The notes under the pieces were generated by a model. It was not told the origin of the DNA, did not search any database, and saw only the letters and a program-made list of their open reading frames with translations. Shown here one piece after another: positions 1,996 through 22,038 of a DNA stretch of 28,713 nucleotides (the first letter of the stretch is position 1; every line of letters starts with the position of its first letter). The stretch is from positions 1-28,713 of the IMG/VR virus record IMGVR_UViG_3300043420_001655; one strand, 5' to 3'. The position numbers were made by a program, and so were the translations under genes. The stretch is from a virus.

Positions 1996-4977
1996 ATGGG
2001 CGGAAAAGCCGGACACATGAAGCATTTATATGAAAATCCAGAACTGACTTTTGGAGAAATAAAACAAATCTTCAAAAAAATAAATGATGGAAAAATGCTT
2101 GTTACTGAAAAGATTGACGGACAGAATTGTCTTGTATCTTATTCTGTAACAGAAGGCAGGATAAAAGCCGCTCGCAATAACAGCCACCTTGCCAAAGGTG
2201 GTCTTCCTATTGAAAATATTTCAGAACTTACTGATGTTGCTGACTTTCAGCAATCACTTGCTGAAGCTCTTTCTTCTTTTGAAGAAACAGTAAAAAAACT
2301 TTCTATAGAAGAACAAATAGATATATTTGGACCTAATACAAACTATTATTACAATACTGAAATACAAGATCCAAATAATAAAAATATTCTTTTATATGAA
2401 AACAAAAGGATCTGTATTCATAGATCCGGTCATCTTCTAAATAATAAATATAATAATATTATAACAGAAGAGATCTTATCAGATCAGTTTAGAAAACTTG
2501 AAGAAACTATCAATAAACAAACTGTTATAAATGAAACTGTAACAGATAAATTTATTGTATCAATCAATCCTATCAGAAAACTTGAACCTGTAAAGAACAA
2601 AAATTGTTATACAGAAGCAGTAAACAAACTGAATAAAGAAATATTGACAAACAAACTTACTGATAGTAGTAGTTTGGCTGAATATATTCTATCAAGAATG
2701 GATAGTATTTTAGAAGAAAAGATACCAGAACTTCCAAAGGAAGCAAAAATAGTTCTTCTAAAAAGACTAATGAAAGTAAAAGAAATAACTGCTAAAAATG
2801 TTTATAAAATCCTAACTGAAACAAACAACTCTCACTTGATTGAGAAAGTAAAAAATATTATTGATAGTGAGAACAAGCTACACAAAGCCTGTATCAATCC
2901 AGTAGAAGAAATAGTAACTGAATATGGTGCCGGTGTTCTCAGTGAGTTTGTTTCATCAAATATCAAAGATACAATATCTGAATCAAATAGAATAAAAACA
3001 AGACTAAAAGAAATATTTGATATAGTCAATATGTCAAATGATCTTGCGGCAAAAGAGTTTGTAAATAAACAACTTTCAAGAATGAAAAACCTTGACAAAG
3101 TCAATATAACTTGTGAAGGTATTGTTTTCAAGTTCAATGGCGATGTTTATAAAATGACTGGTTTCTTTTCTCCACTCAATCAAATCCTTGGTATGACAAA
3201 GTTTGCTCGTGGTAATATACAGCCAATCAATATTGTTGCTGAAACTGTTGCTAATAAAACAGCAGTTCTTTCTTGGGGTCGCTTCAATCCTCCAACAATA
3301 GGGCACGAAATAGTCTTCAAAACAGCCAGCGATCTTGCGGAAAGCAATAATGCTGACTTTTTTATTATTCCATCAAAAACAGTAGACAAGAAAACCAATC
3401 CACTAACATTTGAAGAAAAAGTAAAATATCTAAACAAACTATTCCCAGAATATAAATCAAATGTTGTAACGGATGAAAGCATCAAAACTATTTTTGAAGC
3501 AGCAAAATATTTTCATCAAAATGGATATACAAATCTAAAAATAGTTGTTGGCTCTGATCGTAAAGAGCAATTTGAAGTTCTAAAAAAATATAATAATAAA
3601 GAATATGTTTTTGAAAATATTGAAATATTGTCAGCAGGTGAGCGTTTAGACGAAGGTGAAAGCGCTGCCAGTATGTCGGCAAGCAAAATGCGAGAAGCTG
3701 CAACACAAGGCGATATAGGCTTTTTTATGCGTGGTGTAGCTGGTCGGTTGGAACTCCAAGAAGGAGTTGAACTGATGAACCTTATTCGTTCTCGTTTAGA
3801 AGCCACAGGAGAAGATGGCAAAAAAAAAGTTTTGGAACCTATCTCCCCTTCTTCTCTAAATGAAGTGATAAGAAAATCTGGCTCAAAATGGTGTTTGTTT
3901 TCTAAAAAGAAAACCAAAGACGGAAAAAGAAAAAAACTTGGTTGCTATCCAACTCGTGCTGGTGCGGTAAAAAGAGAGAAACAAGTTCAGTATTTCAAGC
4001 ACATGAAAGAAGAACAAGAAATTGAAGAGATGTCAGCAGCCAGCGGCACTGGTGGTATTCATGGTGCTGCATTTGTTGATAAACAAGAAGAAACAATAAA
4101 TGTATTCAATCAAAGTCTAACTTCTCGTTTTGGCTCCTCCCCAAAACGAGATGATGACAATGTCGCAAAAGAAAAAATAAAAATACTATTTAGAGAAGAG
4201 GAACAATATATGGTTGATAGAAAAGAATTCCTGGAAGAAATACAACTTCGTAAAATAATAAGAGAAGGCATAAAGAAAAAAATAAAAGAAAGAGAAGAAA
4301 GTGTTCTAAAAGAAGAACAACAACTTCGCTTGGTTATTCGCAAGCTTCTCAACGAAAAACAAAAAGATGAACCAAGACATGCAAATACCGGTATCAATCT
4401 ACTAAAAGACCTACTAAAAACTATTGTTCCTTCAATAGAAGATGATTATAAAGATCTAACAACAAATCCAGAACAAGTAAAATCATTTAGAGCACATCTT
4501 CTAAATGGAGCAATAAATATTTTCAAATCTGCCGATGGACTTCAAGACCAGCCAGAAGCAGGAGCAGAAGAAATAACAGAGCAAGAAGTGGTTGATCCAA
4601 ACCAGCCAACCGATCCGCGTTTTATTCCAATCAAAAAACCACAAGTAGTAAAAAAAGAACCAGTAGATACATTTACTATACAAGGTTTGGATAGAACCGG
4701 TGCTAATGTTGCTAAAACAACTTTTAGAAAAATAGAAAATAAAATAAAAAATACATATGAAAACCTCACAGATCCAAAAGATCGTGAAATGTTCAAAGAC
4801 TATCTTATTACCAATCTAAAACTCCATATGGATATTTTTGATAACGATATGCAGGGCAATATGAAAGAGCCAACAACACCTGAATATGAAGAAGAAAAAG
4901 GTAAACTTGATACACAGCAAGACACGACTGCACCAGAAATGACTGGTTCCACAGAAGAACCACCTCCACAAATGTGA
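1996..4977 (+). CDS. Large fusion: ligase-type nucleotidyltransferase + HxGH adenylyl/cytidylyltransferase + virion-like tail
   Basis: This is a 993-residue multidomain protein. Residues about 1-400 carry hallmarks of the ATP-dependent DNA/RNA ligase superfamily: TEKIDG (nucleophile K39, motif I), a motif III-like YYNTEI around E122, EGIVFK at 374-379 (motif IV) and YKMTG with K386 as a possible motif V. A largely helical insertion of about 220 residues sits between motifs III and IV. Residues 425-585 form an HxGH nucleotidyltransferase: WGRFNPPTIGH at 427-437 and SASKMR at 561-566. Residues 628-669 form a small basic module (KWCLFSKK...LGCYPTR...QVQYFKH) also seen in other phage proteins. 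The rest is charged, helical and Pro-rich, with two QLRxxIR repeats at 750-756 and 776-782. It starts after an AAAGGA ribosome binding site. Nucleic-acid repair or NAD/nucleotide metabolism is possible, but the substrate is unknown. Confidence 0.75.
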   Translation: MGGKAGHMKHLYENPELTFGEIKQIFKKINDGKMLVTEKIDGQNCLVSYSVTEGRIKAARNNSHLAKGGLPIENISELTDVADFQQSLAEALSSFEETVKKLSIEEQIDIFGPNTNYYYNTEIQDPNNKNILLYENKRICIHRSGHLLNNKYNNIITEEILSDQFRKLEETINKQTVINETVTDKFIVSINPIRKLEPVKNKNCYTEAVNKLNKEILTNKLTDSSSLAEYILSRMDSILEEKIPELPKEAKIVLLKRLMKVKEITAKNVYKILTETNNSHLIEKVKNIIDSENKLHKACINPVEEIVTEYGAGVLSEFVSSNIKDTISESNRIKTRLKEIFDIVNMSNDLAAKEFVNKQLSRMKNLDKVNITCEGIVFKFNGDVYKMTGFFSPLNQILGMTKFARGNIQPINIVAETVANKTAVLSWGRFNPPTIGHEIVFKTASDLAESNNADFFIIPSKTVDKKTNPLTFEEKVKYLNKLFPEYKSNVVTDESIKTIFEAAKYFHQNGYTNLKIVVGSDRKEQFEVLKKYNNKEYVFENIEILSAGERLDEGESAASMSASKMREAATQGDIGFFMRGVAGRLELQEGVELMNLIRSRLEATGEDGKKKVLEPISPSSLNEVIRKSGSKWCLFSKKKTKDGKRKKLGCYPTRAGAVKREKQVQYFKHMKEEQEIEEMSAASGTGGIHGAAFVDKQEETINVFNQSLTSRFGSSPKRDDDNVAKEKIKILFREEEQYMVDRKEFLEEIQLRKIIREGIKKKIKEREESVLKEEQQLRLVIRKLLNEKQKDEPRHANTGINLLKDLLKTIVPSIEDDYKDLTTNPEQVKSFRAHLLNGAINIFKSADGLQDQPEAGAEEITEQEVVDPNQPTDPRFIPIKKPQVVKKEPVDTFTIQGLDRTGANVAKTTFRKIENKIKNTYENLTDPKDREMFKDYLITNLKLHMDIFDNDMQGNMKEPTTPEYEEEKGKLDTQQDTTAPEMTGSTEEPPPQM

Positions 4978-6105: not shown

Positions 6106-6178
6106 GCCGACATAGCTCAACTGGTAGAGCATCGCCCTTGTAAAGCGAAGGTTTCAAGTTCAATTCTTGATGTCGGCT
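6106..6178 (+). tRNA. tRNA-Thr (UGU)
   Basis: The acceptor stem GCCGACA pairs with TGTCGGC. The anticodon loop is CTTGTAA, giving anticodon TGT, which reads ACA. The T arm is TCAAG/CTTGA with TTCAATT. No CCA is encoded. The pair at the base of the anticodon stem (31-39) is a C-A mismatch. Confidence 0.93.
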
Positions 6179-6182
6179 TTGT

Positions 6183-6258
6183 GGCTCCATCGTCTAGTGG
6201 CCTAGGACGCAAGACTTTCAATCTTGCTACGCGAGTTCGAATCTCGCTGGAGTCACCA
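6183..6258 (+). tRNA. tRNA-Glu (UUC)
   Basis: GGCTCCA pairs with TGGAGTC. The anticodon loop is CTTTCAA, giving anticodon TTC, on a perfect CAAGA/TCTTG stem. The T arm is GCGAG/CTCGC. CCA is encoded. It lies four bases after tRNA-Thr and is presumably on the same transcript. Confidence 0.95.
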
Positions 6259-6278
6259 AATAGTAAGGTAATATAAAC

Positions 6279-6530
6279 ATGTCACAACTTATTCAATATG
6301 ATGAAAGTCTGCCTATCAACTTCAACATGGTAAAAGAGGGATTTGTTGATGGGCTTGTGTCAGAAAAGTTTCTAACCCCAGAGCAAGGGGATATGATAAA
6401 AAAGAACTATGCCATAACTATAGTAAAAAGAAACTGGCTTGGAAGATTAGTTGATGGTTTATTATGGGGAAAGGACAGTAAAGACGAATACAAACTAGTT
6501 ATTGTAAAGGTGGTATTTCCGAACAGATAA
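6279..6530 (+). CDS. Hypothetical protein, 83 residues
   Basis: No family is recognised. The protein is a soluble mixed alpha/beta chain with FLTPEQGDMIKKNYAI in the middle and a C-terminus ending in alternating hydrophobics (YKLVIVKVVF) typical of a beta strand. It sits between tRNA-Glu and tRNA-Ser, with 20 bases upstream and 10 downstream, and has an AAGGT ribosome binding site nine bases before the ATG. It is probably transcribed with the tRNAs, and RNA processing on both sides would release a very short message. Confidence 0.55.
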   Translation: MSQLIQYDESLPINFNMVKEGFVDGLVSEKFLTPEQGDMIKKNYAITIVKRNWLGRLVDGLLWGKDSKDEYKLVIVKVVFPNR

Positions 6531-6540
6531 AATAAACAAT

Positions 6541-6631
6541 GGATAGGTGGCCGAGCGGCTGAAGGCACCGGATTACTAACCCGGCATAGGTTAATAGCCT
6601 ATCGTGAGTTCGAATCTCACCCTGTCCGCCA
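6541..6631 (+). tRNA. tRNA-Ser with ACT anticodon
   Basis: This is a class II tRNA with a long variable arm (TAGGTTAATAGCCTA). GGATAGG pairs with CCTGTCC, the discriminator is G, and CCA is encoded. The loop TTACTAA gives anticodon ACT rather than the usual GCT, so position 34 is A. Position 31-39 is an A-C mismatch. It would read AGU, and more if A34 becomes inosine. Confidence 0.9.
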
Positions 6632-6636
6632 TATAT

Positions 6637-6712
6637 GGGCTTGTAGCTCAATTGGGAGAGCGCCAGATTTGCATTCTGGAGGTTGTGGGTTCGAACCCCG
6701 TCAGGTCCACCA
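6637..6712 (+). tRNA. tRNA-Ala (UGC)
   Basis: GGGCTTG pairs with CAGGTCC and includes the G3-U70 wobble that marks tRNA-Ala. The anticodon loop TTTGCAT gives TGC on a perfect CCAGA/TCTGG stem. The T arm is GTGGG/CCCGT with TTCGAAC. CCA is encoded. Confidence 0.95.
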
Positions 6713-6727
6713 ATATTTCACTTATGA

Positions 6728-6734
6728 CTATTTA
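6728..6734 (+). promoter_or_regulatory. T4-late-like promoter motif next to a start codon
   Basis: CTATTTA ends exactly six bases before the A of the ATG at 6740, the spacing of a T4 late element (-13 to -6) to its start site. No Shine-Dalgarno sequence is visible before this ATG, so a leaderless late message is predicted. Confidence 0.35.
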
Positions 6735-6739
6735 CTAAT

Positions 6740-7333
6740 ATGAAAAACTCGGTCCTCACTTTCTTGCAGTTGGTTCAAAAAGACTGTTTAGAAAACGGAG
6801 TAAACTTGGTTTTCCACCCAGATACAGAAATAAAACTTTCAAAAAGAATATCAGTATCTGGCTTCTGGTCAGATGGCGACAAAGAACTTCAAGTAGCAGT
6901 AAACCATCCAGAATGGCTGACTGTTCTCGCACATGAGTATGGTCACTTTTGCCAGTGGAAAGAAAAAAAGTTCATTGACGAAAAAACAATAGACGCATAT
7001 AGTATGTTTGACGAATGGATAGAAAAAGAAATAGAACTTGACGATCTAATGATAGAAGAAATGATTACTCTAATACAGAAATGCGAACTTGACTGTGAAA
7101 AGCGAGCATTGAAGTTTATAAAAAAATATAAACTTTATTTTGATTACGATCTTTATATACAAAAATCAAATAGTTATGTTTTAGGATATGAAGCAGCAAA
7201 AATAAAAAGAAAATGGTTTATGGTTTCTCCAACAAGGATAAAATCTATTTGTAAAAAAATGCCTAAAACATTTACAAAGACCCTGAAACCAACGAAAAAA
7301 CAACTCAAGCTAATGTTGAAAAATTGTTTTTGA
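6740..7333 (+). CDS. HExxH zinc metallopeptidase-like protein
   Basis: This 197-residue protein has HEYGH at residues 65-69 in the context VLAHEYGHFCQW. Downstream, CELDCEKRA (about 115-123) supplies a Glu suited to act as the third zinc ligand. The last 60 residues are strongly basic (KKMPKTFTKTLKPTKKQLKLM). There is no signal peptide, so it is predicted to act in the cytoplasm. The layout (strand pair, active-site helix, Glu helix) fits small SprT/IrrE-like peptidases, but no exact family is claimed. It follows the tRNA-Ala gene, lacks a ribosome binding site and shares the CTATTTA start-proximal motif with the peptidase-like gene at 1126. Confidence 0.65.
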   Translation: MKNSVLTFLQLVQKDCLENGVNLVFHPDTEIKLSKRISVSGFWSDGDKELQVAVNHPEWLTVLAHEYGHFCQWKEKKFIDEKTIDAYSMFDEWIEKEIELDDLMIEEMITLIQKCELDCEKRALKFIKKYKLYFDYDLYIQKSNSYVLGYEAAKIKRKWFMVSPTRIKSICKKMPKTFTKTLKPTKKQLKLMLKNCF

Positions 7334-7345
7334 AACGAGAAAATA

Positions 7346-7588
7346 ATGTATAGTTTATATGTGTTTATGGATAGATATACAAAGCCTATTCTTCCTCCTC
7401 TTTTAGTGGAAAAAGATTGTGGAAGATATTTTGTAGAAAATAATATTTCTGGTCGTGTTTATCTTGTGAGAGGAAGTTTTGAAGATATTTTCAAATTTAT
7501 CAAGGCTCACAGCCAAATATGGCTTGGCTTTCATGATGTATCCACAGAAGAAAATTTAGTTTTAGAAAAATGGGTAAGACCTCAATAA
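7346..7588 (+). CDS. Hypothetical protein, 80 residues
   Basis: This is a soluble protein of no recognised family. It begins with an aromatic-rich strand (MYSLYVFMDRY). A charged middle contains VEKDCGRYFVE, and a helix (FEDIFKFIKAHS) precedes a Trp-rich C-terminus (WLGF, EKWVRP). It lies 12 bases after the peptidase-like gene and 15 before the next small gene, so the three probably share a message ending at the terminator at 7855. A weak GAGA ribosome binding site precedes the ATG. Confidence 0.5.
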   Translation: MYSLYVFMDRYTKPILPPLLVEKDCGRYFVENNISGRVYLVRGSFEDIFKFIKAHSQIWLGFHDVSTEENLVLEKWVRPQ

Positions 7589-7603
7589 GAAAGAGAGCAG
7601 CAT

Positions 7604-7849
7604 ATGACAGAACAAGTAAAGCAAGAACACAAAGATGGACCACCTTGGACGTCAGCACGAGTTTTTTCAACTTTTGAAGAAGCACAAGTATTTAGGGCAA
7701 CTTGCCAGCAAAACCAACAACTACAAGTAAAAGTAAAAAAATATTTGAACAATGTTGGAGAAAATGTTTTTGTTGTCAAAACAAGGCGAGATCCAAGTTT
7801 GCTTGTAGAGACTGTAAAAGAAAAGAAAAAAAACAAAAATAAAAAATGA
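7604..7849 (+). CDS. Hypothetical protein, 81 residues, basic tail
   Basis: No family is known to me. The first 25 residues are polar. A compact alpha/beta segment follows, with ARVFSTFEEAQVFRATCQQ (a helix with possible capping) and two strands (LQVKVKKY, NVFVVKTRR). The last dozen residues are almost entirely Lys and Asn, which suggests nucleic-acid or acidic-surface contact. It is preceded by a GAGAG ribosome binding site and followed within six bases by an intrinsic terminator, so it is the last gene of its unit. Confidence 0.5.
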   Translation: MTEQVKQEHKDGPPWTSARVFSTFEEAQVFRATCQQNQQLQVKVKKYLNNVGENVFVVKTRRDPSLLVETVKEKKKNKNKK

Positions 7850-7854
7850 AAAAG

Positions 7855-7876
7855 AACCCGGATCACTCCGGGTTTT
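7855..7876 (+). terminator. Intrinsic terminator
   Basis: AACCCGG at 7855-7861 pairs with CCGGGTT at 7868-7874 around the loop ATCACT, and the stem merges into TTTT. It closes the unit ending with the gene at 7604 and isolates the following restriction-modification-like pair. Confidence 0.85.
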
Positions 7877-7883
7877 GTCTTAC

Positions 7884-7915
7884 TTGACTTCACAACGCAC
7901 ATCGTGTAGGTTGTG
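7884..7915 (+). promoter_or_regulatory. Possible sigma70 promoter overlaid with an inverted repeat
   Basis: TTGACT (7884-7889) is followed after 17 bases by TAGGTT (7907-7912), a weak -10. Over it lies an inverted repeat: CACAAC 7891-7896 with GTTGTG 7910-7915, and inner CAC 7898-7900 with GTG 7904-7906. It lies just upstream of the ribosome binding site GGAG (7919-7922). It could be an operator or a leader hairpin controlling the downstream pair. Confidence 0.4.
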
Positions 7916-7928
7916 AGCGGAGCGGTTT

Positions 7929-8498
7929 ATGATGACAGTAGAAAAAGTTGATTTATTACTAACAAATAGTGTTATAGAAGAAATAAAAAATCGCATTACA
8001 AAACATCACGAACTTTATGATAGCAAAATAACTTCTACACTGTGGGAAGAGATACTTCACAAATCGTTCATAAAAAATAATATGAACTCAAACTGGAATA
8101 TGTATGGACATCAGTCAGGTTCAGATGTGGAATGTGAAGGAGTGCAAATATCCTGCAAGTCCGGAATAATAAAAGGCAAGAAAATAAAAAAACTTTCCAT
8201 ATCTTCTTACAGAACAACTGCACTGAAAACGATAGAAGAAAAAATCGTTTACCTTGATAAACAACACGAAGACATAATATTTTCTCTTGTATTTGATAAT
8301 GAGAAATATAAAATATTTACATTCATTCAGCCAAAAGTTGGTTTATTAGAATGGACCGAGACAAAAAGTCAATGGAAGGCAATAGATAAAGAAATATGGA
8401 ATGAGTTCAAAATTTCCAAAAGTATGTCAGATCAGTTTTGGATGAATCTCAGCATGGATAACTGGGAAAAGTGGGGAATAAAAGTTTATGATCTATGA
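7929..8498 (+). CDS. Putative restriction endonuclease-like protein
   Basis: This 189-residue protein contains a segment that fits a PD-(D/E)xK-type nuclease core: an early helix with Glu pairs (LWEEILHKSF, about 38-47), then GSDVECEGVQISCKSG (64-79). D66 and K77 occupy the catalytic Asp and Lys positions, and the residue two before the Lys is Ser (S75), with E68/E70 as possible substitutes. The middle is rich in beta strands (IIFSLVFDNEKYKIFTFI). The gene overlaps the following DNA methyltransferase by 11 bases, which is the main reason to suspect a type II endonuclease. The start at 7929 or 7932 follows GGAG. Without structure comparison the nuclease call remains tentative. Confidence 0.45.
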   Translation: MMTVEKVDLLLTNSVIEEIKNRITKHHELYDSKITSTLWEEILHKSFIKNNMNSNWNMYGHQSGSDVECEGVQISCKSGIIKGKKIKKLSISSYRTTALKTIEEKIVYLDKQHEDIIFSLVFDNEKYKIFTFIQPKVGLLEWTETKSQWKAIDKEIWNEFKISKSMSDQFWMNLSMDNWEKWGIKVYDL

Positions 8499-9474
8499 TT
8501 TTCTAAATGTAAGAAATAGCCTTCGTAATCTCACAGACGCCGACTTTGAAAGCAAGGTAGAACAACTGGCAGAAGAACTTGTTGGTGTTGATTATAAAAC
8601 AAAATATTCAGAAGACCAACTAAAAAAAGATTGGGCTGCTCTAAAAGCATACAATACTGAAAGCGATAATACTGCTTCTACTGTGCGCGTTGGAATGAAA
8701 CTTTGCGAACATTTTTTTCCAAACTTTTATAACATCAAGAACTCAAAAGGCGTAAGTTTTGCAAGTTCATGGAATAAAGAAAACCTTATAAAGATCCTGA
8801 AATGGAATAGAAAAAGCCACTCAACTCCTTATCTGTCAGAAATAAAAAGAGGAATATATTTTTGCACTGGTCTTACTAAAAACACCATGTTCAGGCCACA
8901 TTTGGCAAAAACAGTTGTTTCGTATTTCCCAGGAAACACAGTGTTAGATCCGTGTGCTGGTTGGGGTGGTCGCATGTTGGGAACTCTTGCGGCAGGAAAA
9001 AAATATATTGGCTTTGAACCAAACCAAGAAACATATGCGGGTCTAAAAAACCTTGCTGATTTTCTTGGAGAAAAACCAACCCTGCACAACACAGGAGCGG
9101 AAAACATTTACAAGCATGTAGGTCAACTTGTTGATATTGTTTTGACTTCTCCACCGTATTTCAATCTTGAAGTTTATAGTGATGAAAAAACTCAATCAGA
9201 AAACATGTATTCCACATATGAAGAATGGAGAGACAAGTGGTTAGCCGATGTTATATATCAAGCAACTGATTGTCTGATGGAGTCAGGTGTTTCTTGCTGG
9301 AATGTGCACAATGTAGGAAAAATGAATATGATTGAAGATGTAAAAAAATTACACGAAAAATATAGATTTATTCCAGTAAAAACTTTTTCTCTCACTTCAT
9401 CAAAACGGCAAGCAAACCAGACTGTATCAAAGAATGAAAAAAATGCTGATGTAACTGTTTGCTATCGTCGCTGA
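8488..9474 (+). CDS. DNA methyltransferase (amino-MTase, TSPPY type)
   Basis: This 328-residue protein has the S-adenosylmethionine-binding motif LDPCAGWGGRMLG at 153-165, then IGFEPN at 174-179 (motif II region) and the catalytic TSPPYF at 220-225, the signature of N6-adenine/N4-cytosine DNA methyltransferases. The first 130 residues form a separate helical domain that may read the target site. GLTKNTMFRPHLAK just before motif I resembles motif X, giving a beta-like order (X-I-IV). It starts inside the upstream gene (11-nt overlap). It could protect phage DNA from host restriction, or be the modification half of a phage restriction-modification pair. Confidence 0.85.
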   Translation: MIYDFLNVRNSLRNLTDADFESKVEQLAEELVGVDYKTKYSEDQLKKDWAALKAYNTESDNTASTVRVGMKLCEHFFPNFYNIKNSKGVSFASSWNKENLIKILKWNRKSHSTPYLSEIKRGIYFCTGLTKNTMFRPHLAKTVVSYFPGNTVLDPCAGWGGRMLGTLAAGKKYIGFEPNQETYAGLKNLADFLGEKPTLHNTGAENIYKHVGQLVDIVLTSPPYFNLEVYSDEKTQSENMYSTYEEWRDKWLADVIYQATDCLMESGVSCWNVHNVGKMNMIEDVKKLHEKYRFIPVKTFSLTSSKRQANQTVSKNEKNADVTVCYRR

Positions 9475-9489
9475 TCCACACCGCACCGC

Positions 9490-9518
9490 TTGACACGCCA
9501 GCAGATCGGTGCTATGAT
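9490..9518 (+). promoter_or_regulatory. Strong sigma70 promoter for a tRNA cluster
   Basis: TTGACA (9490-9495, perfect) is followed after exactly 17 bases by TATGAT (9513-9518, one mismatch). The predicted start near 9525 is about 10 bases before tRNA-Ile. The promoter lies in a locally GC-rich patch (9470-9530) unlike the flanking coding DNA. Confidence 0.85.
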
Positions 9519-9534
9519 GGATGCATGGTTACGA

Positions 9535-9611
9535 ACTCCTGTAACTCAGTTGGTCAGAGTGTCGCTCTTATAAGGCGAAAGTCGTGGGTTCAAGTCCCAC
9601 CGGGAGTACCA
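9535..9611 (+). tRNA. tRNA-Ile (UAU)
   Basis: ACTCCTG pairs with CGGGAGT (one T-G pair). The anticodon loop CTTATAA gives TAT, which reads AUA directly without lysidine modification. The T arm is GTGGG/CCCAC and CCA is encoded. AUA is a common codon in the surrounding phage genes. Confidence 0.93.
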
Positions 9612-9615
9612 TTTT

Positions 9616-9692
9616 TGTCCGGTAGCTCAGTAGGTAGTAGCGCCTGACTGTTAATCAGGAAGTCGTTGGTTCGAACCCAACCCGGACAGCCA
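9616..9692 (+). tRNA. tRNA-Asn (GUU)
   Basis: TGTCCGG pairs with CCGGACA, with discriminator G and encoded CCA, as in bacterial tRNA-Asn. The loop CTGTTAA gives anticodon GTT on a perfect CCTGA/TCAGG stem. The D arm is slightly irregular, with only three good pairs. Confidence 0.93.
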
Positions 9693-9705
9693 AACAGAGA
9701 ATAAA

Positions 9706-9873
9706 ATGACAGAAAAAGAAAATAAAGTCCAAATCATATCAACAGACACTTGGGCTGGCGCAGCAAAAGAATTTGCCAGACAGTTTGGTAGTGTGGCAAC
9801 ATTGCTAATACTTGTTCTTACCGTGGGTCAATGCACCAATTGTATAGATATTTATCGGCTCTTGGGAAAATGA
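9706..9873 (+). CDS. Small single-span membrane protein between tRNAs
   Basis: This 55-residue frame lies between tRNA-Asn and tRNA-Arg. The N-terminal 25 residues are polar and charged, followed by a membrane helix (SVATLLILVLTV, about 29-40), a GQCTNC motif with two Cys and a short basic end. The codon pattern resembles that of neighbouring genes. The upstream AGAGA sequence offers a modest ribosome binding site. The product could sit in the inner membrane with its C-terminus outside, the Cys pair being available for disulphide formation. The function is unknown. Confidence 0.5.
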   Translation: MTEKENKVQIISTDTWAGAAKEFARQFGSVATLLILVLTVGQCTNCIDIYRLLGK

Positions 9874-9882
9874 AAAGGAGTT

Positions 9883-9959
9883 GCCCTGTTAGCTCAGTGG
9901 ATCAGAGCAAACCGTTTCTACCGGTCAGGTCGGGGGTTCGAATCCCTCACAGGGTGCCA
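9883..9959 (+). tRNA. tRNA-Arg (UCU)
   Basis: GCCCTGT pairs with ACAGGGT (G1-U72 wobble), with discriminator G and encoded CCA. The loop TTTCTAC gives anticodon TCT, which reads AGA. The outermost anticodon-stem pair (27-43) is an A-C mismatch. Confidence 0.93.
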
Positions 9960-9964
9960 AATAT

Positions 9965-10171
9965 ATGAATCAAAATAAAAAAGAAAGCAAAATACTGAAA
10001 GCCGCTTTGAAAGCACATCGTGCTCTATCAAAAGCAAACAGAACAACGATAAAAGATGTAGCAAAACTTTGTGATTGTTGTATGGACGAATGGACGTGGC
10101 TTTCAATAAAAGAAGAAAAACTGTGCGATGAGTGCTATAGGGAAAAATATGTCAAGACCAAAATGGGATGA
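9965..10171 (+). CDS. Small zinc-finger-like protein
   Basis: This 68-residue protein is basic and helical in its first 30 residues. It then has two CxxC knuckles (CDCC at 36-39 and CDEC at 54-57) spaced as in a treble-clef or zinc-ribbon fold. The ATG is only five bases after the CCA of tRNA-Arg, so the only ribosome-binding-like sequence (AGGG, 9951-9954) lies inside the tRNA acceptor stem. The 3' end overlaps the dCMP deaminase gene by 23 bases. It is likely a metal-binding nucleic-acid or protein adaptor; its partner is unknown. Confidence 0.55.
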   Translation: MNQNKKESKILKAALKAHRALSKANRTTIKDVAKLCDCCMDEWTWLSIKEEKLCDECYREKYVKTKMG

Positions 10172-10571
10172 AATATGGATAAGTTTGGCGCTTCATGTAT
10201 CACAACGCTCACCTGACACAAGACTAAAAGTAGGTTGCGTTGTTATTACAGAAGACAACTCATCAGTATTAAGTCTTGGATACAACGGAGATCAACATGG
10301 TGGAACTAATAAGCCTGATAGCATGGAGCCGGGTAAGAGTGGATTCATCCACGCAGAAGCAAACGCTCTCATCAAATTGAATTTTGCAGATCACAGACAG
10401 AAAAAGATGTATCTAACCCACTCACCTTGTCCTGTTTGTGCTCGTATGATAGTAAATGCTGGAATCAAAAAAGTTATATATTGCGACGAATATAGAGACA
10501 CAAAAGGCGTAGATATACTAAAAGATTCCGGTATAGTGGTAGAAAAGTACGAAATGTATATGGCCGATTAG
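10149..10571 (+). CDS. Deoxycytidylate (dCMP) deaminase
   Basis: This 140-residue protein of the cytidine/deoxycytidylate deaminase family converts dCMP to dUMP, the precursor for thymidylate synthesis. The zinc site is plain: HAEANAL (H68, catalytic E70) and SPCPVCARMIVNAG (C94, C97). Substrate-loop residues are present in LSLGYNGD. The start at 10149 follows AGGGA. A GTG at 10128 would add seven residues but lacks a better ribosome binding site. It corresponds to T4 gene cd in function and fits an AT-rich phage with high dTTP demand. It follows the zinc-finger-like gene with a short overlap. Confidence 0.92.
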   Translation: MSRPKWDEIWISLALHVSQRSPDTRLKVGCVVITEDNSSVLSLGYNGDQHGGTNKPDSMEPGKSGFIHAEANALIKLNFADHRQKKMYLTHSPCPVCARMIVNAGIKKVIYCDEYRDTKGVDILKDSGIVVEKYEMYMAD

Positions 10572-10599
10572 GTCACTTGCTAACAAAAGGAGTTATATT

Positions 10600-10914
10600 A
10601 TGTCAGATAAGCGTGAAATTGAACTAAATCTTGATCTTGAACTTCGTGCACGCGAAGATAATGAAGTTCTAAAACTTACCAAAACAGTTGAGGCAAACTT
10701 TGTTCCACAACATGGTATGGTTGTTATGGTAGATGAAATTCCGTTTCGTGTAAAAACAGTTGCACTTGCCAACTTGAGTGGTCTAAAGCATGTTGCTTTT
10801 CCAGTAACCACAAAAGGTATCAAGTTTATTTCTCGTAACGACACAGAAAAAGGAAAGCAGTGGTTTTCCAGTCGTTCAGAGCACTTCAAGCGGCTTGGCT
10901 GGCAACTTATTTGA
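10600..10914 (+). CDS. Hypothetical protein, 104 residues
   Basis: No family is recognised. The N-terminal third is highly charged (IELNLDLELRAREDNEVLKL), and the rest looks like a small beta-rich domain with GMVVMVDEIPFRVKTV and HVAFPVTTKGIKFIS, reminiscent of short SH3-like or OB-like folds. The protein ends WFSSRSEHFKRLGWQLI. It has one of the best ribosome binding sites in the window (AAAGGAG, seven bases from the ATG) and is followed by an intrinsic terminator, so it should be well expressed. Confidence 0.6.
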   Translation: MSDKREIELNLDLELRAREDNEVLKLTKTVEANFVPQHGMVVMVDEIPFRVKTVALANLSGLKHVAFPVTTKGIKFISRNDTEKGKQWFSSRSEHFKRLGWQLI

Positions 10915-10929
10915 TAGATATTTGAAAAG

Positions 10930-10956
10930 AACTGCCCGTTTTATCGGGCAGTTTTT
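10930..10956 (+). terminator. Intrinsic terminator
   Basis: AACTGCCCG (10930-10938) pairs perfectly with CGGGCAGTT (10945-10953) over the loop TTTTAT, and a T tract runs to 10956. It ends the unit containing the dCMP deaminase and the 104-residue protein. Confidence 0.92.
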
Positions 10957-10971
10957 CTAAATGGTGTAAAA

Positions 10972-11454
10972 ATGAAAATAAAAACCCTGCATGATGGAAA
11001 AGAAGTTTGTCTAAAAGAAGTTCTGCGGGACAAACACGGTGTAAAATATCGTGTTGGTTGCGATAGTCTAAATGTCAAAGAACACACTGTATTTATCACA
11101 ACTCTTGTCGGTATCCACCCAGAACGTCGTGGCGCTTTTATTCTTTATTCAAAAGAAAAAATAAAAAAGATTCAAGAACCACGCCTTCGTTTGTGGCAAG
11201 AAGTTGAAAAGGCAATAAGTTTTGCTACGCACCTACGGGAAGAAATTGGTGTTGAGATAGAGTGTATTGACTTTGATCTAAACACAGACACTACATATGA
11301 GTCCAGCCGGCTTGTTGCAAGTGCTCTTGGTTATGCTGAAGCAATGGGATTCAAGGCTTTTTGTAAGCCAAATGCACTGTATGCGATTTATGCTGCAGAT
11401 TTTATAACACATAAAAGTAACGATGCCTATAAAAGAAAAGGATTGGCAACATGA
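10972..11454 (+). CDS. DUF458/YkuK-like RNase H-fold protein
   Basis: This 160-residue protein resembles the DUF458 (YkuK) family, whose members have an RNase H-like fold. Visible signatures are RVGCDSLN near residues 27-34 (first strand with acidic D31), FITTLVGIHPERRGAFILYSKEK, RLWQEVEKAI, an acidic strand IECIDFDLN and the C-terminal SALGYAEAMGFKAFCKPNALYAIYAAD. In RNase H folds such acidic residues bind metal, but nuclease activity is not established for this family. It begins 16 bases after a terminator, with a weak ribosome binding site, and is coupled by an ATGA overlap to the Cys-rich membrane protein. Confidence 0.7.
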   Translation: MKIKTLHDGKEVCLKEVLRDKHGVKYRVGCDSLNVKEHTVFITTLVGIHPERRGAFILYSKEKIKKIQEPRLRLWQEVEKAISFATHLREEIGVEIECIDFDLNTDTTYESSRLVASALGYAEAMGFKAFCKPNALYAIYAADFITHKSNDAYKRKGLAT

Positions 11455-11816
11455 ATAAAGTAAAACATTTCTTTGTAAAAAATATCAAAAATATTCTAAC
11501 ACTTGTTAGTGGAATTATCGTAGGGGCATGTTCTATTGTTCTTGCTCTAACAATCCAACAGCGAGTATCGCAGCACCTATCGCAAAAAAACTCTAAAATA
11601 GCCTGCCATCAAGCATATAGAATGATGTGTGTTCAGGTCCATGCTTGCACCAGTTCGTCTGTTGCTTCTTGTGATAATTTTGTAGAGCAAACAAAACCAT
11701 GCGAAGAAGAAGACCTGCCAAGCGAAAAGATTATTGAGCGATGCACAGAGCAACTTCGCCATGTTGAGTGCACCGACGACCTTCCACCAAGTTGTGGAAC
11801 ATTCATGGAGCAATAA
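11451..11816 (+). CDS. Membrane-anchored protein with Cys-rich external domain
   Basis: This 121-residue protein has a basic start, then one membrane helix (about 15-36), then a domain of some 85 residues containing eight Cys (52, 60, 66, 74, 84, 98, 107, 115). The positive-inside rule places the Cys-rich part in the periplasm, where four disulphides could form. It ends with CTDDLPPSCG. The Cys spacing resembles small secreted Cys-rich domains common in predatory and social delta-proteobacteria, but no family is assigned. It sits between DUF458 and SpoU genes with tight junctions and an AAGGAT ribosome binding site. It could be a superinfection or envelope-interaction factor. Confidence 0.6.
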   Translation: MNKVKHFFVKNIKNILTLVSGIIVGACSIVLALTIQQRVSQHLSQKNSKIACHQAYRMMCVQVHACTSSSVASCDNFVEQTKPCEEEDLPSEKIIERCTEQLRHVECTDDLPPSCGTFMEQ

Positions 11817-12332
11817 ATGAGAACAGAAACTCGCCGAGAAAGATACAAGAACAAACAAAAACTCTCTGTTAGATTTCCAGTAGAGGTTGCTTGTATAAAT
11901 TTTAGACACGAACCAAATATTGGATATGTTGTGAGAGCAGCAGCATGTTTTGGAGCAAGCAAAGTAAATTTGATAGGTTCAGCACCGGAACCAAAATATC
12001 TGCGCGAGATCTCTGGAACAACAAGCGATTTTATTGATATTTCAACTTTTTCTACTCCACATGAATTTTTGGAATATGCAAGAAAAAATGATATTCATAT
12101 AGTTTCAGCAGAGATCACACAAGAGGCTAAAAATATTTATGATTACACTTTTCCAAAAAATAAAAAAGTTTGTATTGTCGTTGGTAACGAGCAAACTGGA
12201 ATCACAGCCGACATTCTCAAATACAGTGAAGTTGTGGAGATTCCAATGCCGGGAGTAGGCTACTGCCTAAACACCAGTCAAGCCTGCAACATTATGTTGT
12301 TTGAATACAGCAAGCAAATGTCAGTATCTTGA
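11817..12332 (+). CDS. SpoU/TrmH-family RNA 2'-O-methyltransferase
   Basis: This 171-residue protein shows all three SPOUT motifs. Motif 1 is EPNIGYVVRAAACFGA (N34 and R40), motif 2 VVGNEQTGI (121-129) and motif 3 IPMPGVGYCLNTSQACNIM (142-160), where Asn152 lies in the knot loop. Such enzymes methylate ribose 2'-OH groups in tRNA or rRNA using S-adenosylmethionine and dimerise. The length is close to the minimal catalytic unit. The first 20 residues are strongly basic, as expected for RNA contact. It follows the previous stop directly with a GGAG ribosome binding site and ends over the promoter of tRNA-Leu. A phage tRNA substrate is an attractive guess. Confidence 0.85.
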   Translation: MRTETRRERYKNKQKLSVRFPVEVACINFRHEPNIGYVVRAAACFGASKVNLIGSAPEPKYLREISGTTSDFIDISTFSTPHEFLEYARKNDIHIVSAEITQEAKNIYDYTFPKNKKVCIVVGNEQTGITADILKYSEVVEIPMPGVGYCLNTSQACNIMLFEYSKQMSVS

Positions 12333-12364
12333 CAAAAAACAAGATCAGTGTTATGCTGATCTTG
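12329..12364 (+). promoter_or_regulatory. Strong sigma70 promoter for tRNA-Leu, with palindrome over the -10
   Basis: TTGACA (12329-12334, perfect) and TATGCT (12352-12357) are 17 bases apart, with a predicted start near 12364 and the tRNA at 12370. CAAGATCAG (12340-12348) and CTGATCTTG (12356-12364) form a perfect 9-bp inverted repeat over the -10 region, suitable for a repressor site. The -35 element overlaps the stop codon of the SpoU gene. Confidence 0.8.
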
Positions 12365-12369
12365 CCAAT

Positions 12370-12455
12370 GCCCCGGTGGTGGAATGGTTTACACAGCAGA
12401 CTTAAAATCTGTCACTCGCAAGGGTTTGTCGGTTCGAGTCCGACTCGGGGCACCA
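12370..12455 (+). tRNA. tRNA-Leu (UAA)
   Basis: This is a class II tRNA with a variable arm. GCCCCGG pairs with TCGGGGC, with discriminator A and encoded CCA. The loop CTTAAAA gives anticodon TAA, which reads UUA. The T arm is GTCGG/CCGAC. UUA is heavily used in the AT-rich glycan cassette downstream. Confidence 0.94.
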
Positions 12456-12559: not shown

Positions 12560-13306
12560 CTATTTAATGTTGTTTTTGATAATGTCAATAAGTTTTGTAT
12601 TTCTGTTCTCTAATACAACTTTTAGTTCTTCTTTGAAAGCAACTGTAAAAGTGTAATCAACAAACTGTTTTGTTCTCGTATAACTAACGCTCATCATTAC
12701 ATGTTGAAAACCAGTTATACCTCTGGATACTACCCCTATTATTTGCCACTTGCTATCAAACATGGGAGAGCCAGAACTTCCTCCCATGCCAGTTACGCTG
12801 TGAAGGTCAAGTGCATGTTTTTCTTCTTTTAGTTTGAGTTGTCCTTGGTAGTGTCCTTCAAAAGATAGCGACATGTTTGGTGCGTGTATTCCCATTGGTG
12901 CCGCTATATTATATACCTTATCACCTATTTCTGGCTCTGAATCGCTCATTTTTACAGCACGCCAAGCAATAAAGTCTGTAATCAATATACATAAATCATC
13001 TTCATTAGAGCGAACAAAGGTTATGATTTCATATTCTTTTTCATAGTGATCTAAAACTCTCATAGCAACTGTGTTATCTTTACAAATATGACCAGCAGTA
13101 AGAACAAGAGTTTTATCATCAATATGATTGACGATTACACCGGACCCGGTGCTGATGTAGTCTTCTGTGGCGACTTCAATCTTCACAAAAGAAGTTTTTG
13201 GAGCATTTTTCATGGTGATACTCTCACCAAGAGTGATACATCCACAACTGGCACAGAAAACCAGGAGTGCTATCATGCCAATGAGTTGTTTGAAAAACTG
13301 CGGCAT
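12560..13306 (-). CDS. Exported trypsin-like serine protease
   Basis: This 248-residue protein is the only clear minus-strand gene. It opens with a hydrophobic export signal (about 8-20) ending in CASCGC, which may be a lipoprotein cleavage site (C21 or C23). The chymotrypsin-fold triad is visible: H73 in LTAGHIC, D104 in NEDDLCIL and S178 in GGSSGSP. GDKVYNIAAPMG precedes the Ser segment as in trypsin/DegP-like proteases, and no PDZ domain follows. It should act in the periplasm or at the cell surface. Its opposite orientation and separation from neighbours are typical of cargo (moron) genes. The ribosome binding site is weak and no firm promoter is seen. Roles could include modifying host envelope proteins or blocking other phages. 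Confidence 0.82.
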   Translation of the reverse strand: MPQFFKQLIGMIALLVFCASCGCITLGESITMKNAPKTSFVKIEVATEDYISTGSGVIVNHIDDKTLVLTAGHICKDNTVAMRVLDHYEKEYEIITFVRSNEDDLCILITDFIAWRAVKMSDSEPEIGDKVYNIAAPMGIHAPNMSLSFEGHYQGQLKLKEEKHALDLHSVTGMGGSSGSPMFDSKWQIIGVVSRGITGFQHVMMSVSYTRTKQFVDYTFTVAFKEELKVVLENRNTKLIDIIKNNIK

Positions 13307-13366: not shown

Positions 13367-14683
13367 ATGAAAAAAATATTTGTGTTAGATACAAGTGTAT
13401 GTCTTGCAAGTGCCAACGCTGTTTATAGCTTTGGCAAGGACGATGTTTATATCCCTCTAAAAGTGCTTGAAGAGGTTGATAAACACAAAAATCGTCAAGA
13501 TGGGGTGGGACAAAATGCTCGCATGTTTATCAAAATACTTGATGAACTGCGAGACAAGGGTTCTTTACAAGAAGGCGTAAGACTACAAAAGGGCAAGGGT
13601 TTTCTTCGCTCTGCTGCACTTACAGTATCAGATTTTCCAACAGACTTGGATCTTTCTGTTCCGGATCATGTCATTATCGCAACAGCTTCTGGTATAGCGA
13701 AAACGCACCAAGATAAAAGAGTTGTTGTTGTTTCACGCGATATAAATATGCGTGTTATTTGCGATTCTATTGGTCTTGGTTCACAAGATTATGACGCAAA
13801 TCAAGTTATAAATGACAGTTCGGAGCTTTATTCTGGTCTTTGCGAAATGGTTGTTGATGACGAGTTTATTGAAAGAATATACAAAGGAGAAGACCTCTTT
13901 CTTGAAGATAGCAAAACAGATAAACTATTTCCAAATCAGTTTATAACTCTTGTATCAAACAAAAATGTAAACAAAACAGCACTGGCAAGGTTTCTAACAA
14001 AAGAACAGCCACTTCGCCGCCTTGCCGAGTTCAAAGGCAGGCATAAAGTGTTCGGAGTAGAATCCAGAAATCGCGAACAAAGCTTTGCCATGGATCTGCT
14101 CATGGACCCAAGTGTTCCAATCGTCAGCTTGGTTGGTAAAGCAGGTTCTGGTAAAACTTTATCAGCAGTAGCAGCAGGATTGGCCCAGTTGCTTGAAAAG
14201 GGCAGCTACACCCGCTTGATAGTCTCACGACCAGTTCAGCCATTAGGACGCGATATAGGCTTTTTGCCAGGCACTCTTGAAGAGAAGATGATGCCTTGGC
14301 TAACTCCAATCCAAGATAACTTACAGTTCCTTCTTGGTAACGATAAGGCTACCTTACAGCAGTATATGGATACTGGAAAAATAGAAATAGAAGCACTTAC
14401 ATATATTCGTGGTCGTAGCATTGCCAAAGCATTTATGATAATAGATGAAGCACAAAATCTTTCATCACATGAACTAAAAACAATCGTTACTCGCGTTGGT
14501 GAAGGAACAAAAATAGTTCTTACAGGCGATATAGAACAAATAGACAATGTCTATGTCAATGATACAAGCAATGGTCTTGCTTATGCTGTTGAAAAGTTCA
14601 AACACTATTCACTTGCTGGTCATGTGACCTTGAGCAAGGGCGAAAGATCTGCCGTAGCAAGTCTTGCAGCAAAAGTTCTTTGA
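13367..14683 (+). CDS. phoH: PhoH-like ATPase with N-terminal PIN domain
   Basis: This 438-residue protein joins a PIN nuclease-like domain to a PhoH ATPase, as in PhoH2 proteins. PIN acidic residues are in place: D8 (VLDTSV), E35 (LEEVD), D100 (VPDHVI) and D125 (SRDINMR). The ATPase has Walker A GKAGSGKT at 257-264, SRPVQPLGRDIGFLPG at 287-302, Walker B IIDEAQN at 358-364 and TGDIEQID at 386-393. PhoH2 enzymes of bacteria have RNA unwinding and cleaving activity; phage versions are common in marine myoviruses but their role is unsettled. An AGGA ribosome binding site lies six bases before the ATG. It is followed closely by a small gene with its own GAGGAG. Confidence 0.93.
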   Translation: MKKIFVLDTSVCLASANAVYSFGKDDVYIPLKVLEEVDKHKNRQDGVGQNARMFIKILDELRDKGSLQEGVRLQKGKGFLRSAALTVSDFPTDLDLSVPDHVIIATASGIAKTHQDKRVVVVSRDINMRVICDSIGLGSQDYDANQVINDSSELYSGLCEMVVDDEFIERIYKGEDLFLEDSKTDKLFPNQFITLVSNKNVNKTALARFLTKEQPLRRLAEFKGRHKVFGVESRNREQSFAMDLLMDPSVPIVSLVGKAGSGKTLSAVAAGLAQLLEKGSYTRLIVSRPVQPLGRDIGFLPGTLEEKMMPWLTPIQDNLQFLLGNDKATLQQYMDTGKIEIEALTYIRGRSIAKAFMIIDEAQNLSSHELKTIVTRVGEGTKIVLTGDIEQIDNVYVNDTSNGLAYAVEKFKHYSLAGHVTLSKGERSAVASLAAKVL

Positions 14684-14692: not shown

Positions 14693-14941
14693 ATGGAAGA
14701 CAGGGAAATAGAAGAAAAAATAGTGGAAAAAGATAATCCACTAAAAGAAATGTTCGTTCAGTATGTTGGAGAAAAACTAAAGCCAGAAAATGGCGAAGTA
14801 AATGTTGAAATGTGTGTGCAAGTATTGGCAGACGAGTTCCCAGACTTTTTATTACTTGTAGCGCAAGAAAACTTTATTAGAGGTTATCGTCAATGTCTAG
14901 TCGACATGGAGAATGCACCAAGTGAACAAAAAACAGAATAG
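14693..14941 (+). CDS. Conserved hypothetical phage protein, 82 residues
   Basis: This small acidic helical protein has the core VNVEMCVQVLADEFPDFLLLVAQENFIRGYRQCL, written here as adjoining parts: VNVEMCVQVLADEFPDF then LLLVAQENFIRGYRQCL. I remember a similar protein as a frequent unnamed companion in marine T4-like phages, but no function is established. It has an excellent GAGGAG ribosome binding site, follows phoH after nine bases and overlaps the next gene by 29 bases. It has no Cys cluster, no membrane segment and no known motif. Confidence 0.65.
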   Translation: MEDREIEEKIVEKDNPLKEMFVQYVGEKLKPENGEVNVEMCVQVLADEFPDFLLLVAQENFIRGYRQCLVDMENAPSEQKTE

Positions 14942-15608
14942 GTTTTTTAGATCTGGAAATCAGATCAAGTTGATTGAGCAAACAGTATTTGGCAGTGTCA
15001 ATGTTATCCAACAGGAAACACTGCCAGATAATGTAAATATAAACAATATATTGAAGAAACTTGAAATAGTCATCCCAGAACACTTTATACAAAACCTTGA
15101 TGGCATTTATATAGGAACATATAGTTTTTTATTAGACAGAGAACTGAATGCACAATATAAAGATGGTGTCATCTATGTTCTTGCCGACCAAGATAATGAA
15201 ATGGATATATACGACGATATCGTGCATGAAATAGCTCACTGCGTAGAAGAAACATATGGTCCAGATATATATGAGGACGGAGACTTGGAGCAGGAGTTTT
15301 TACGCAAAAGACGTCGTTTGTTTGACATTCTGCGCTCCTACGGCTATACTGATGGAATGCCCGAGGCCAAGTTTATGAACCCGGATTTTGATCACAAGTT
15401 TGATCAGTATCTGTATTCAACTGTTGGCTATCCTGTATTAGCTCAACTTGTACCGGATTTGTTTGTATCTCCATATGGTGCCACATCTTTGAGAGAATAT
15501 TTTGCAAATGCTTTTGAACACTATTTTGCTCACAGAGGATATAAAAGAGTTCAAAATGTTTCACCATCTGTTTATGAAAAGATAGAAATGCTATTGGGCG
15601 ATAACTGA
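14913..15608 (+). CDS. HExxH metallopeptidase-like protein (ATLF-like motif layout)
   Basis: This 231-residue protein has HEIAH at 105-109 in DDIVHEIAHCVEE and, 86 residues later, LREYFANAFEHYF (E195 or E202), a layout like anthrax lethal-factor-type and other gluzincins in which a downstream ExxA/ExF helix gives the third zinc ligand. It has no signal peptide. The ATG at 14913 lies too close to GGAG (14908-14911). A GTG at 14922 has better spacing to the same GGAG, so the true start may be there. It lies between the 82-residue protein and the Cas4-like nuclease, on one message. It could be a virion or anti-host protease; the substrate is unknown. Confidence 0.65.
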   Translation: MHQVNKKQNRFFRSGNQIKLIEQTVFGSVNVIQQETLPDNVNINNILKKLEIVIPEHFIQNLDGIYIGTYSFLLDRELNAQYKDGVIYVLADQDNEMDIYDDIVHEIAHCVEETYGPDIYEDGDLEQEFLRKRRRLFDILRSYGYTDGMPEAKFMNPDFDHKFDQYLYSTVGYPVLAQLVPDLFVSPYGATSLREYFANAFEHYFAHRGYKRVQNVSPSVYEKIEMLLGDN

Positions 15609-16432: not shown

Positions 16433-16441
16433 GGAAGTTTG

Positions 16442-19698: not shown

Positions 19699-20366
19699 AA
19701 AAGTTAGGAATAATAATTCCCTATAGAGATAGGGAGGAACATTTAAAAAAATTTGTTCCTCACATGATAAACTTCTTAAAAAATAAATTATCATATTCCA
19801 TTTTAGTTGTTGAACAAACCAATGATCTCCCGTTTAATCGTGCAAAATTGTTAAATATTGGGTTTGATCGTTTGAAGGATTGGTGTGATTACTTTTGTTT
19901 TCATGATATTGATATGCTTCCAATAAGTGAAGAATGTGATTATTCTGAAATAAATGGAGTCTGTAAATTATCTTATTATGTAAGTCAGTTTAACTTTATT
20001 CCAAGACCATCTGATGAATTAGGTGGAGTAACTTTGATTGATAAAGACAGCTTTTTGAGTGTCAATGGATATAGAAATGATTATTTTGGTTGGGGTTTAG
20101 AGGATAATGATTTTGCTTTAAGATGTAAAACGAAATCAATTCCTTTTAATTTGAGAATGGGAAGATATATGTCTATTTATCATAAACCAAATGGAGATAC
20201 TCATGGAGATCCGCCATCTAAAGAAACAATTCAAAATAGAATAAAATTTCATAATATTGTCAATTCACAAGGCGATTTATTTTTAAATGGGTATTCACAA
20301 TTAAAGTATAAAGTTTTAAATATTGAAGAAAAACAAAATTTTACTTTAATAAAAGTTGATATATGA
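19695..20366 (+). CDS. GT7-like beta-1,4-galactosyltransferase
   Basis: This 223-residue protein has the full signature of the GT7 (B4GalT-like) family, best known from animals: IIPYRDREEHLKKFVPH, FNRAKLLNIGF (47-57), the metal motif FHDIDMLP (D71, D73), GGVTLIDKDSFLSVNGYRND and FGWGLEDNDFALR (132-144). Family members transfer galactose or GalNAc from UDP-sugar to GlcNAc-type acceptors with inversion. No signal or membrane anchor is present, as expected for cytoplasmic assembly. It is translationally coupled to both neighbours. Together with the adjacent GT10 enzyme it suggests a fucosylated Gal-GlcNAc-like product; the exact sugars are inference. Confidence 0.82.
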   Translation: MKKLGIIIPYRDREEHLKKFVPHMINFLKNKLSYSILVVEQTNDLPFNRAKLLNIGFDRLKDWCDYFCFHDIDMLPISEECDYSEINGVCKLSYYVSQFNFIPRPSDELGGVTLIDKDSFLSVNGYRNDYFGWGLEDNDFALRCKTKSIPFNLRMGRYMSIYHKPNGDTHGDPPSKETIQNRIKFHNIVNSQGDLFLNGYSQLKYKVLNIEEKQNFTLIKVDI

Positions 20367-21981: not shown

Positions 21982-22038
21982 TTTTAATAATTCATGGTAA
22001 TAAATTTCTTGGAAATTAATCAATATTATTGTTATTTT

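Follow-up and report, generated by a model that had tools for sequence, protein, structure and literature searches.

The closest described counterparts of the phage protein considered here are RNA ligases, NMNAT-type nucleotidyltransferases and the internal head proteins of phage T4. T4 Rnl1, T4 Rnl2 and the Naegleria RNA ligase (Rnl superfamily, PF09414/PF09511) have a fold core with motifs I (KxDG), III and IV (EG), and phage NMNATs and cyanophage cytidyltransferases (phrog_395, phrog_3041; NadM, NadR, NadD) combine GRFxPPxxGH and S(A/G)(S/T)xxR motifs with a Rossmann-like fold. Fusions are known in the latter group, of NadM to Nudix and of NadR to a kinase (PMC9503650), and HIGH nucleotidyltransferases that add NMP to phosphosugars have been proposed for phage sugar clusters (PMC7824862). 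The T4 prohead protease gp21, whose cleavage site lies after L/I-X-E, strips virion proteins of N-terminal propeptides 7-65 residues long; for targeting, the first ten residues of IPIII are enough (PMC9026906). In cyanophage S-CREM2, mass spectrometry of virions showed the cytidylyltransferase ORF154 (3 unique peptides), and cytidyltransferases are often detected in cyanophage virions, with a caution from the authors about possible carry-over (PMC10665884). The protein described here joins a ligase-type to a HIGH-superfamily domain; both folds are known, and the pair is present in databases but unrecognised, its carriers being annotated by the second domain only, or as unknown. In the literature searched, we found no description of the ligase-like nature of the first domain, of its recurrent pairing, in either order, with several NMNAT subtypes, or of the LxE/GG junctions reported below (a slash before GG or a similar start marks the junction), and we found no mention of DUF6267 or of Microcystis phage Mel-JY01.

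Domains of the 993-residue protein

The window, which is the whole 28.7-kb stretch of the virus record that was analysed, contains an uninterrupted open reading frame at 1996..4977 (+ strand) for a protein of 993 residues, made up of a ligase-type nucleotidyltransferase domain (1-403), a HIGH-superfamily domain (420-607), a small module (624-672) and a helical C-terminal region. Full-length relatives are found at IMG/VR loci L001-L005 and L027 (55-100% identity), and the reading frame is under purifying selection, with dN/dS of 0.06-0.38 by domain where synonymous change is unsaturated. An assembly artefact was rejected, because the fusion is full length at several distinct loci and the reverse order is found at many more. 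A first-pass annotation, made from the letters of the sequence, had proposed two different AMP/NMP-transferring folds in one chain; it placed the motifs correctly (TEKIDG 37-42, EGIVFK 374-379, GRFNPPTIGH 428-437, SASKMR 561-566), and the predicted structure and fold matches bear the proposal out, residues 1-414 being modelled at pLDDT 89.8 with matches to polynucleotide ligases and residues 420-607 matching an HxGH Rossmann fold. Protease-type junctions, a module at about 624-672 common to other phage proteins and a helical C-terminal third are additions to that annotation.

The ligase-type domain (1996..3204, +) is recognised by its AlphaFold2 model, by structural matches and by invariant motifs, namely motif I (K39-x-D-G), R60, motif III (E122), motif IV (E374-G375) and motif V (YK386-x-T388). 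Across 75 distinct relatives K39, D41, G42, R60, E374, G375 and K386 are invariant, and E122 and T388 are each kept in 74 (E122 is replaced once, by D). Conservation in the motif IV and V columns is partly preselected, since these were in the search patterns, and motifs I and III are free of that; invariance over so many relatives shows that the motifs are no chance occurrence. The model of residues 1-414, built with 49 aligned sequences, reached a mean pLDDT of 89.8 and a pTM of 0.87. Foldseek against the PDB gave T4 Rnl1 as the top match at E 0.005, which is not significant alone, with none below 0.001, and the leading matches were almost all polynucleotide ligases. VIA-align returned T4 Rnl1 (Z 8.9, 176 residues, 3.8 A), Naegleria RNA ligase (Z 8.8) and T4 Rnl2 (Z 8.1), followed by DNA ligases and a capping enzyme at Z of about 6-7; each of the best 50 rows (Z 5.7-8.9) was a polynucleotide ligase or a capping enzyme. 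The top Z is moderate, and together with the invariant KxDG, E and EG motifs it makes the assignment of residues 1-403 to the covalent nucleotidyltransferase (ligase) superfamily firm at superfamily level.

The fold core and motifs I, III and IV are those of the Rnl enzymes, and the N-terminal segment adds to this likeness, aligning from residue 3 of T4 Rnl2. That alignment begins at residue 3 of both chains, and we therefore do not claim a LigA Ia-like NAD-binding segment in the N-terminal HxxH motif. Unlike in the Rnl ligases, the sequence match is weak: Pfam RNA_ligase (PF09414) is below its cut-off (residues 34-93, E 0.003, 18 bits vs 27), TIGR02306 scores far under its own, and a PDB sequence search with the domain gave nothing meaningful, with scattered WD40, ribosomal and dehydrogenase matches. 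A further difference is a helical insert of about 160 residues between motifs III and IV. The roughly 220-residue insert noticed in the first-pass annotation is thus real, with 252 residues from E122 to E374 and an all-helical stretch at about 203-361 in the model. The K-x-K of motif V in ATP-dependent RNA ligases is absent, K386-x-T388 standing in its place, which makes sealing activity uncertain, and the domain ends soon after motif V, so that it lacks the C-terminal ligase domain at that position.

Residues 420-607 (3253..3816, +) are a HIGH-superfamily (NMNAT/CTP_transf-like) nucleotidyltransferase, with [HT]xGH and S/T-x-x-R motifs (TIGH 434-437 within the first, SASKMR as the second) in a Rossmann-like fold. 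Pfam CTP_transf_like (PF01467, E 1.2e-7) is the sole Pfam match above cut-off in the entire protein, and the domain also matches phrog_3041 (E 9e-47) and phrog_395. By structure the best Foldseek match was NadD (E 1.6e-4), and VIA placed PPAT, NadD and NadM together at Z 12.8-13.8; this tie means that the fold does not tell the substrate, and the curated NadD model TIGR00482 stayed under its cut-off (22 bits vs 112). Motifs and fold agree with the phage NMNATs and cyanophage cytidyltransferases, but unlike in the NadM and NadR fusions the partner here is a ligase-like domain.

A search of the phage collection with the remainder, residues 611-993, gave no relative at E<0.1. This part includes the small module (residues 624-672, VIRKSGSKWCLFSKKK..GCYPTRAG..KREKQVQYFKHMKE; 3865..4011, +), directly preceded by SLNE623. 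Modules of this type (K.GSKWCL.SKK..K.LGCY.S..G...RE.QVQYFKHMKE) recur in unrelated phage proteins (L007-L012, L015, L016, L031, L103), among them a dual-specificity phosphatase, a Pol-beta nucleotidyltransferase plus NMNAT, and short proteins; they usually have [LIV]xE in front and may be a targeting or packaging tag. At L007 (771-3335), L008 (5941-9033) and L009 (5941-8913) the shared module is followed by a Pol-beta-type nucleotidyltransferase and then an NMNAT-like domain, without a ligase. From about residue 720 to the end the protein is helical. The helical part at 4225..4974 (+) contains repeats of amphipathic character (LRKIIREGIKKK, LRLVIRKLLNE) as well as two segments of about 50 residues that are related to each other and start TGINLLKDLL and TGANVAKTTF.

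Elsewhere, the window carries eight tRNA genes interspersed with small ORFs (6106-12455), near which lie a SpoU-type RNA methylase (11817-12332) and a dCMP-deaminase-like protein (10128-10571). Further on are a trypsin-like serine protease with a lipoprotein-like signal, which is the only large gene on the opposite strand (12560-13306, -), a fusion of a PIN domain with a PhoH ATPase (13367-14683), a zincin-type metallopeptidase-like protein with weak matches, under cut-offs, to peptidase M90 and a related domain (14913-15608), and a glycosyltransferase cluster with GDP-mannose 4,6-dehydratase and a fucosyltransferase-like gene (16439-26337).

Spread and order of the two domains

At least 588 confirmed ligase-domain stretches were found in IMG/VR by an alignment-based scan; tblastn against the reference phage collection found the domain in only three phage records, and 84,980 prokaryote genomes gave one fragmentary match, in a bacterial MAG. 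Where a judgement was possible, at least 54 distinct relatives carry an NMNAT-like domain in the same chain (NMNAT-first in 39, ligase-first in 14, plus L035 on its Pfam match), the order in most relatives being the reverse of that in the window protein, with NMNAT, linker and then ligase; 17 relatives are cut by contig ends. Five clear stand-alone ligases (L037, L038, L040, L041, L070) come from short contigs on which no PF01467 match was detected, and next to a sixth (L021) is a gene with an NMNAT domain at its C-terminus. In one 915-residue protein of a 484-kb phage (L022, 4462-7218), a ParB-like N-terminal segment, seen by eye, precedes the NMNAT-like and ligase domains, and the ligase domain lacks the GG start (STSHLRHPFED). 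The earlier view that no characterised enzyme has this order is right in part only: the ligase-NMNAT order belongs to one clade, and the pair recurs, mostly reversed, in dozens of environmental phages, and occurs in Microcystis phage Mel-JY01 and, in a probable remote version, in marine T4-like cyanophages.

The ligase tree joins the ligase-first proteins, the lineage of the window protein included, in one clade (100/99), and the NMNAT tree scatters them over several branches, with at least 4 changes forced by well supported branches; some NMNAT branches are long, so exact placements are unsure. Three NMNAT motif types occur among them: GRFNPPTxGH, as in the window protein and cyanophages, GGFKPPHxGH, and GRFQP(F/M)xxxH. 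One ligase clade spread over several NMNAT branches suggests that the pairing has been re-formed with NMNATs of different subtypes, and this speaks for a functional link between the two domains.

Like the window protein, the cytidylyltransferase-like protein of Mel-JY01 (WWT39297.1) has both domains, its ligase half being 28% identical over 402 residues; unlike it, the order is reversed, with a leader (MGKLINILLSELRLHIFSE) and IIAE/GG before the ligase domain. The cyanophage version is more distant. A 591-residue protein of S-PM2 (LN828717) consists of DUF6267 and CTP_transf_like, with phrog_455 spanning both; where this S-PM2d record has one DUF6267-NMNAT protein, the reference S-PM2 record has two ORFs (L023, L107). 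DUF6267 proteins of T4-like cyanophages have HLEHLED, KWDG and EGFV motifs, in the order HxxH (followed by ED), KxDG, EG and K of the window protein and likewise before an NMNAT domain. Unlike the window protein, they have D in motif III and are usually encoded next to the NMNAT in two adjacent genes. The window protein did not match DUF6267 (PF19782) in a Pfam search at E up to 1, and hhalign of the ligase family against DUF6267 was weak (E 0.01, probability 4%), so the relation is drawn from the shared motifs and from a BFVD match between the S-PM2 structure model and the ligase model (E 1.1e-4, prob 1.00), which make DUF6267 a probable remote homologue of the ligase domain. The DUF6267 region matches 471 phage records, mostly cyanophages; in the annotations examined it lies directly upstream of the cytidyltransferase in five further cyanophages; in some others, e.g. 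ACG-2014f and S-B05, the two are far apart.

Junctions, prohead proteases and virions

Ligase domains that are internal or follow a leader start GG..GHM.H, and [LIVMF]xE stands just before them in 57 of 61 distinct cases, the background of that triplet being 2.2% per position. After clustering at 60% identity the count is 17 of 18: position -1 is invariably E, position -2 varies among seven residues (T, L, N, M, A, E, R), and L, I or M stands at -3. The binomial value for the clusters is about 1e-28, which takes no account of remaining kinship. The exceptions are LLxC in three relatives (L042, L067, L078) and MS in one. Simple inheritance of LxEGG without selection was considered and is countered by the variable middle residue in the 17 clusters and by the proteins that begin at Met and have no LxE. 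Eleven proteins, the window protein among them, begin Met/GG or Met/GA (one, L049, also has LRE/GAMG), and removal of this Met would leave the same N-terminus as a cut at [LIVMF]xE/GG. Comparison with relatives accordingly predicts Gly2-Gly3-x-x-x-His7-Met-x-His10 as the mature N-terminus of the window protein once Met is removed (1999..2025, +); in relatives with an internal ligase domain this sequence follows [LIVMF]xE. Among NMNAT-first proteins with a complete start, 33/33 have a leader of 5-25 residues with [LIVMF]xE shortly before the first strand (MNKLVEQIIKELKLQIFNE, MNELSNFLIETILGE, MNLIKE).

By sequence, these [LIVMF]xE/GG junctions resemble the L/I-x-E motif of the T4 prohead protease, and a T4-type (gp21-type) prohead protease (PF03420) accompanies the gene on 9 of the 14 contigs tested, the contig of the near relative L004 being one of them; the window is a 28.7-kb fragment. 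In Mel-JY01 the gene belongs to the head and structural region, and the terminase, prohead protease and capsid genes follow a few kb further on; by our reading the Mel-JY01 capsid protein has QLISE/A at a depth similar to the gp23 propeptide. Short amphipathic leaders, L/I-x-E junctions and, on most of the 14 contigs, a prohead protease are likenesses of the relatives to T4 internal head proteins and Alt, with their capsid targeting sequence and gp21 processing; T4 internal proteins differ in carrying no ligase or NMNAT. The window protein, unlike them, has no N-terminal targeting leader and starts directly M-GG. A possible processing site is the linker NIVAE416 between its two domains (3229..3243, +), weak on its own, in which Glu416 follows [IVLM]-x in 5/5 relatives of its subgroup.

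Proposed packaging, NAD chemistry and other readings

Given the two folds with their catalytic motifs, the recurrent pairing, the junctions in relatives and the co-occurring prohead protease, we favor, at a probability of about 0.5, ligase and NMNAT modules that are packaged in the head, trimmed by the prohead protease and act early in infection. The pair would be made late and targeted into the prohead like T4 internal proteins, a T4-type protease would trim it at (L/I)xE junctions between modules, and both enzymes would be delivered with the phage DNA. The RNA-ligase-like domain would charge Lys39 with AMP and seal or adenylylate nucleic-acid ends, and the HIGH domain would move AMP/NMP onto a small phosphorylated substrate, with nicotinamide or nicotinate mononucleotide as the likeliest candidate and NAD or NaAD as the product, so that at the start of infection nicked nucleic acid, e.g. 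tRNA cut by host nucleases, could be repaired and NAD restored. For the window protein we infer packaging, cleavage, substrates and role in infection, packaging from its relatives. Against its packaging stand the missing leader and a ligase-NMNAT junction that reads VAE rather than L/I-x-E; L/I-x-E triplets are moreover common by chance (29 in the protein), and the virion detection concerns a cyanophage relative of the NMNAT half only. The first-pass annotation had suggested that end repair is coupled to adenylyl or NAD chemistry, of which the end-repair role fits the RNA-ligase-like fold and the NAD coupling is possible only. A phage NAD-salvage operon as a general partner was rejected, since a NadV-type NAPRTase is found in only 1 of 14 contigs and the full salvage route is thus not general.

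The absent leader would suit an ordinary bifunctional enzyme of RNA repair and NAD salvage that is made during infection, stays in the cytoplasm and never enters the virion, LxEGG being a structural feature of the domain's N-terminus, and the DUF6267 and cytidyltransferase genes of S-PM2 and other cyanophages do lie in a replication neighbourhood, by the gp41 primase-helicase and mazG. We regard this as possible but doubtful: most ligase-first relatives have no LxE and start exactly at Met/GG, so the fold does not need the LxE stretch, the Mel-JY01 gene sits among structural genes, and a cyanophage cytidylyltransferase was detected in virions. The recurrent pairing with NMNAT-like domains in both orders could also point to a self-contained NAD-dependent ligase that takes AMP from NAD and releases NMN, from which the attached NMNAT would remake NAD with ATP. 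This idea draws only on the pairing and on the single Lys of motif V (K386 in 75/75, T388 in 74/75), which departs from the K-x-K of ATP-dependent RNA ligases and is reminiscent of bacterial LigA; it is unlikely, as there is no recognisable NAD-binding Ia domain, the nearest structures are ATP-dependent RNA ligases, and PPAT scores as high as NadD for the HIGH domain, so that NMN is only a putative substrate. Similarly improbable is its combination with packaging, a virion enzyme polyprotein cut at LxE/GG by the prohead protease in the capsid, whose ligase and NMNAT are injected, the ligase taking AMP from NAD and the NMNAT regenerating it, with repair and NAD restoration preceding phage gene expression.

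A quite different role for the HIGH domain, the making of NDP-sugars for the phage's own glycosyltransferases with the ligase-like domain serving some unrelated function, is suggested by the cluster of glycosyltransferases with GDP-mannose dehydratase that spans about 16.4-26.3 kb in the window and by the action on phosphosugars already proposed for HIGH nucleotidyltransferases in phage sugar clusters (PMC7824862). The gene, however, lies about 11 kb from that cluster, with the tRNA cluster between, and HIGH domains of different subtypes are repeatedly paired with the ligase domain, an unexpected pattern for two domains without a common role, so we hold this reading to be very unlikely.

With the ligase-NMNAT pair, a large phage family that has lacked annotation, with at least 588 stretches in IMG/VR and three reference phage records only, receives an identity that can be tested, and so, more tentatively, does DUF6267, with about 470 phage records, mostly from cyanophages. 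Should the prohead protease indeed cut at the junctions, ligase and NMNAT would form an enzyme set delivered with the genome. Injected phage enzymes are few (T4 Alt, N4 RNA polymerase), and their range would then extend to nucleic-acid repair and NAD chemistry, which would bear on how phages meet tRNA-cutting and NAD-depleting defences.
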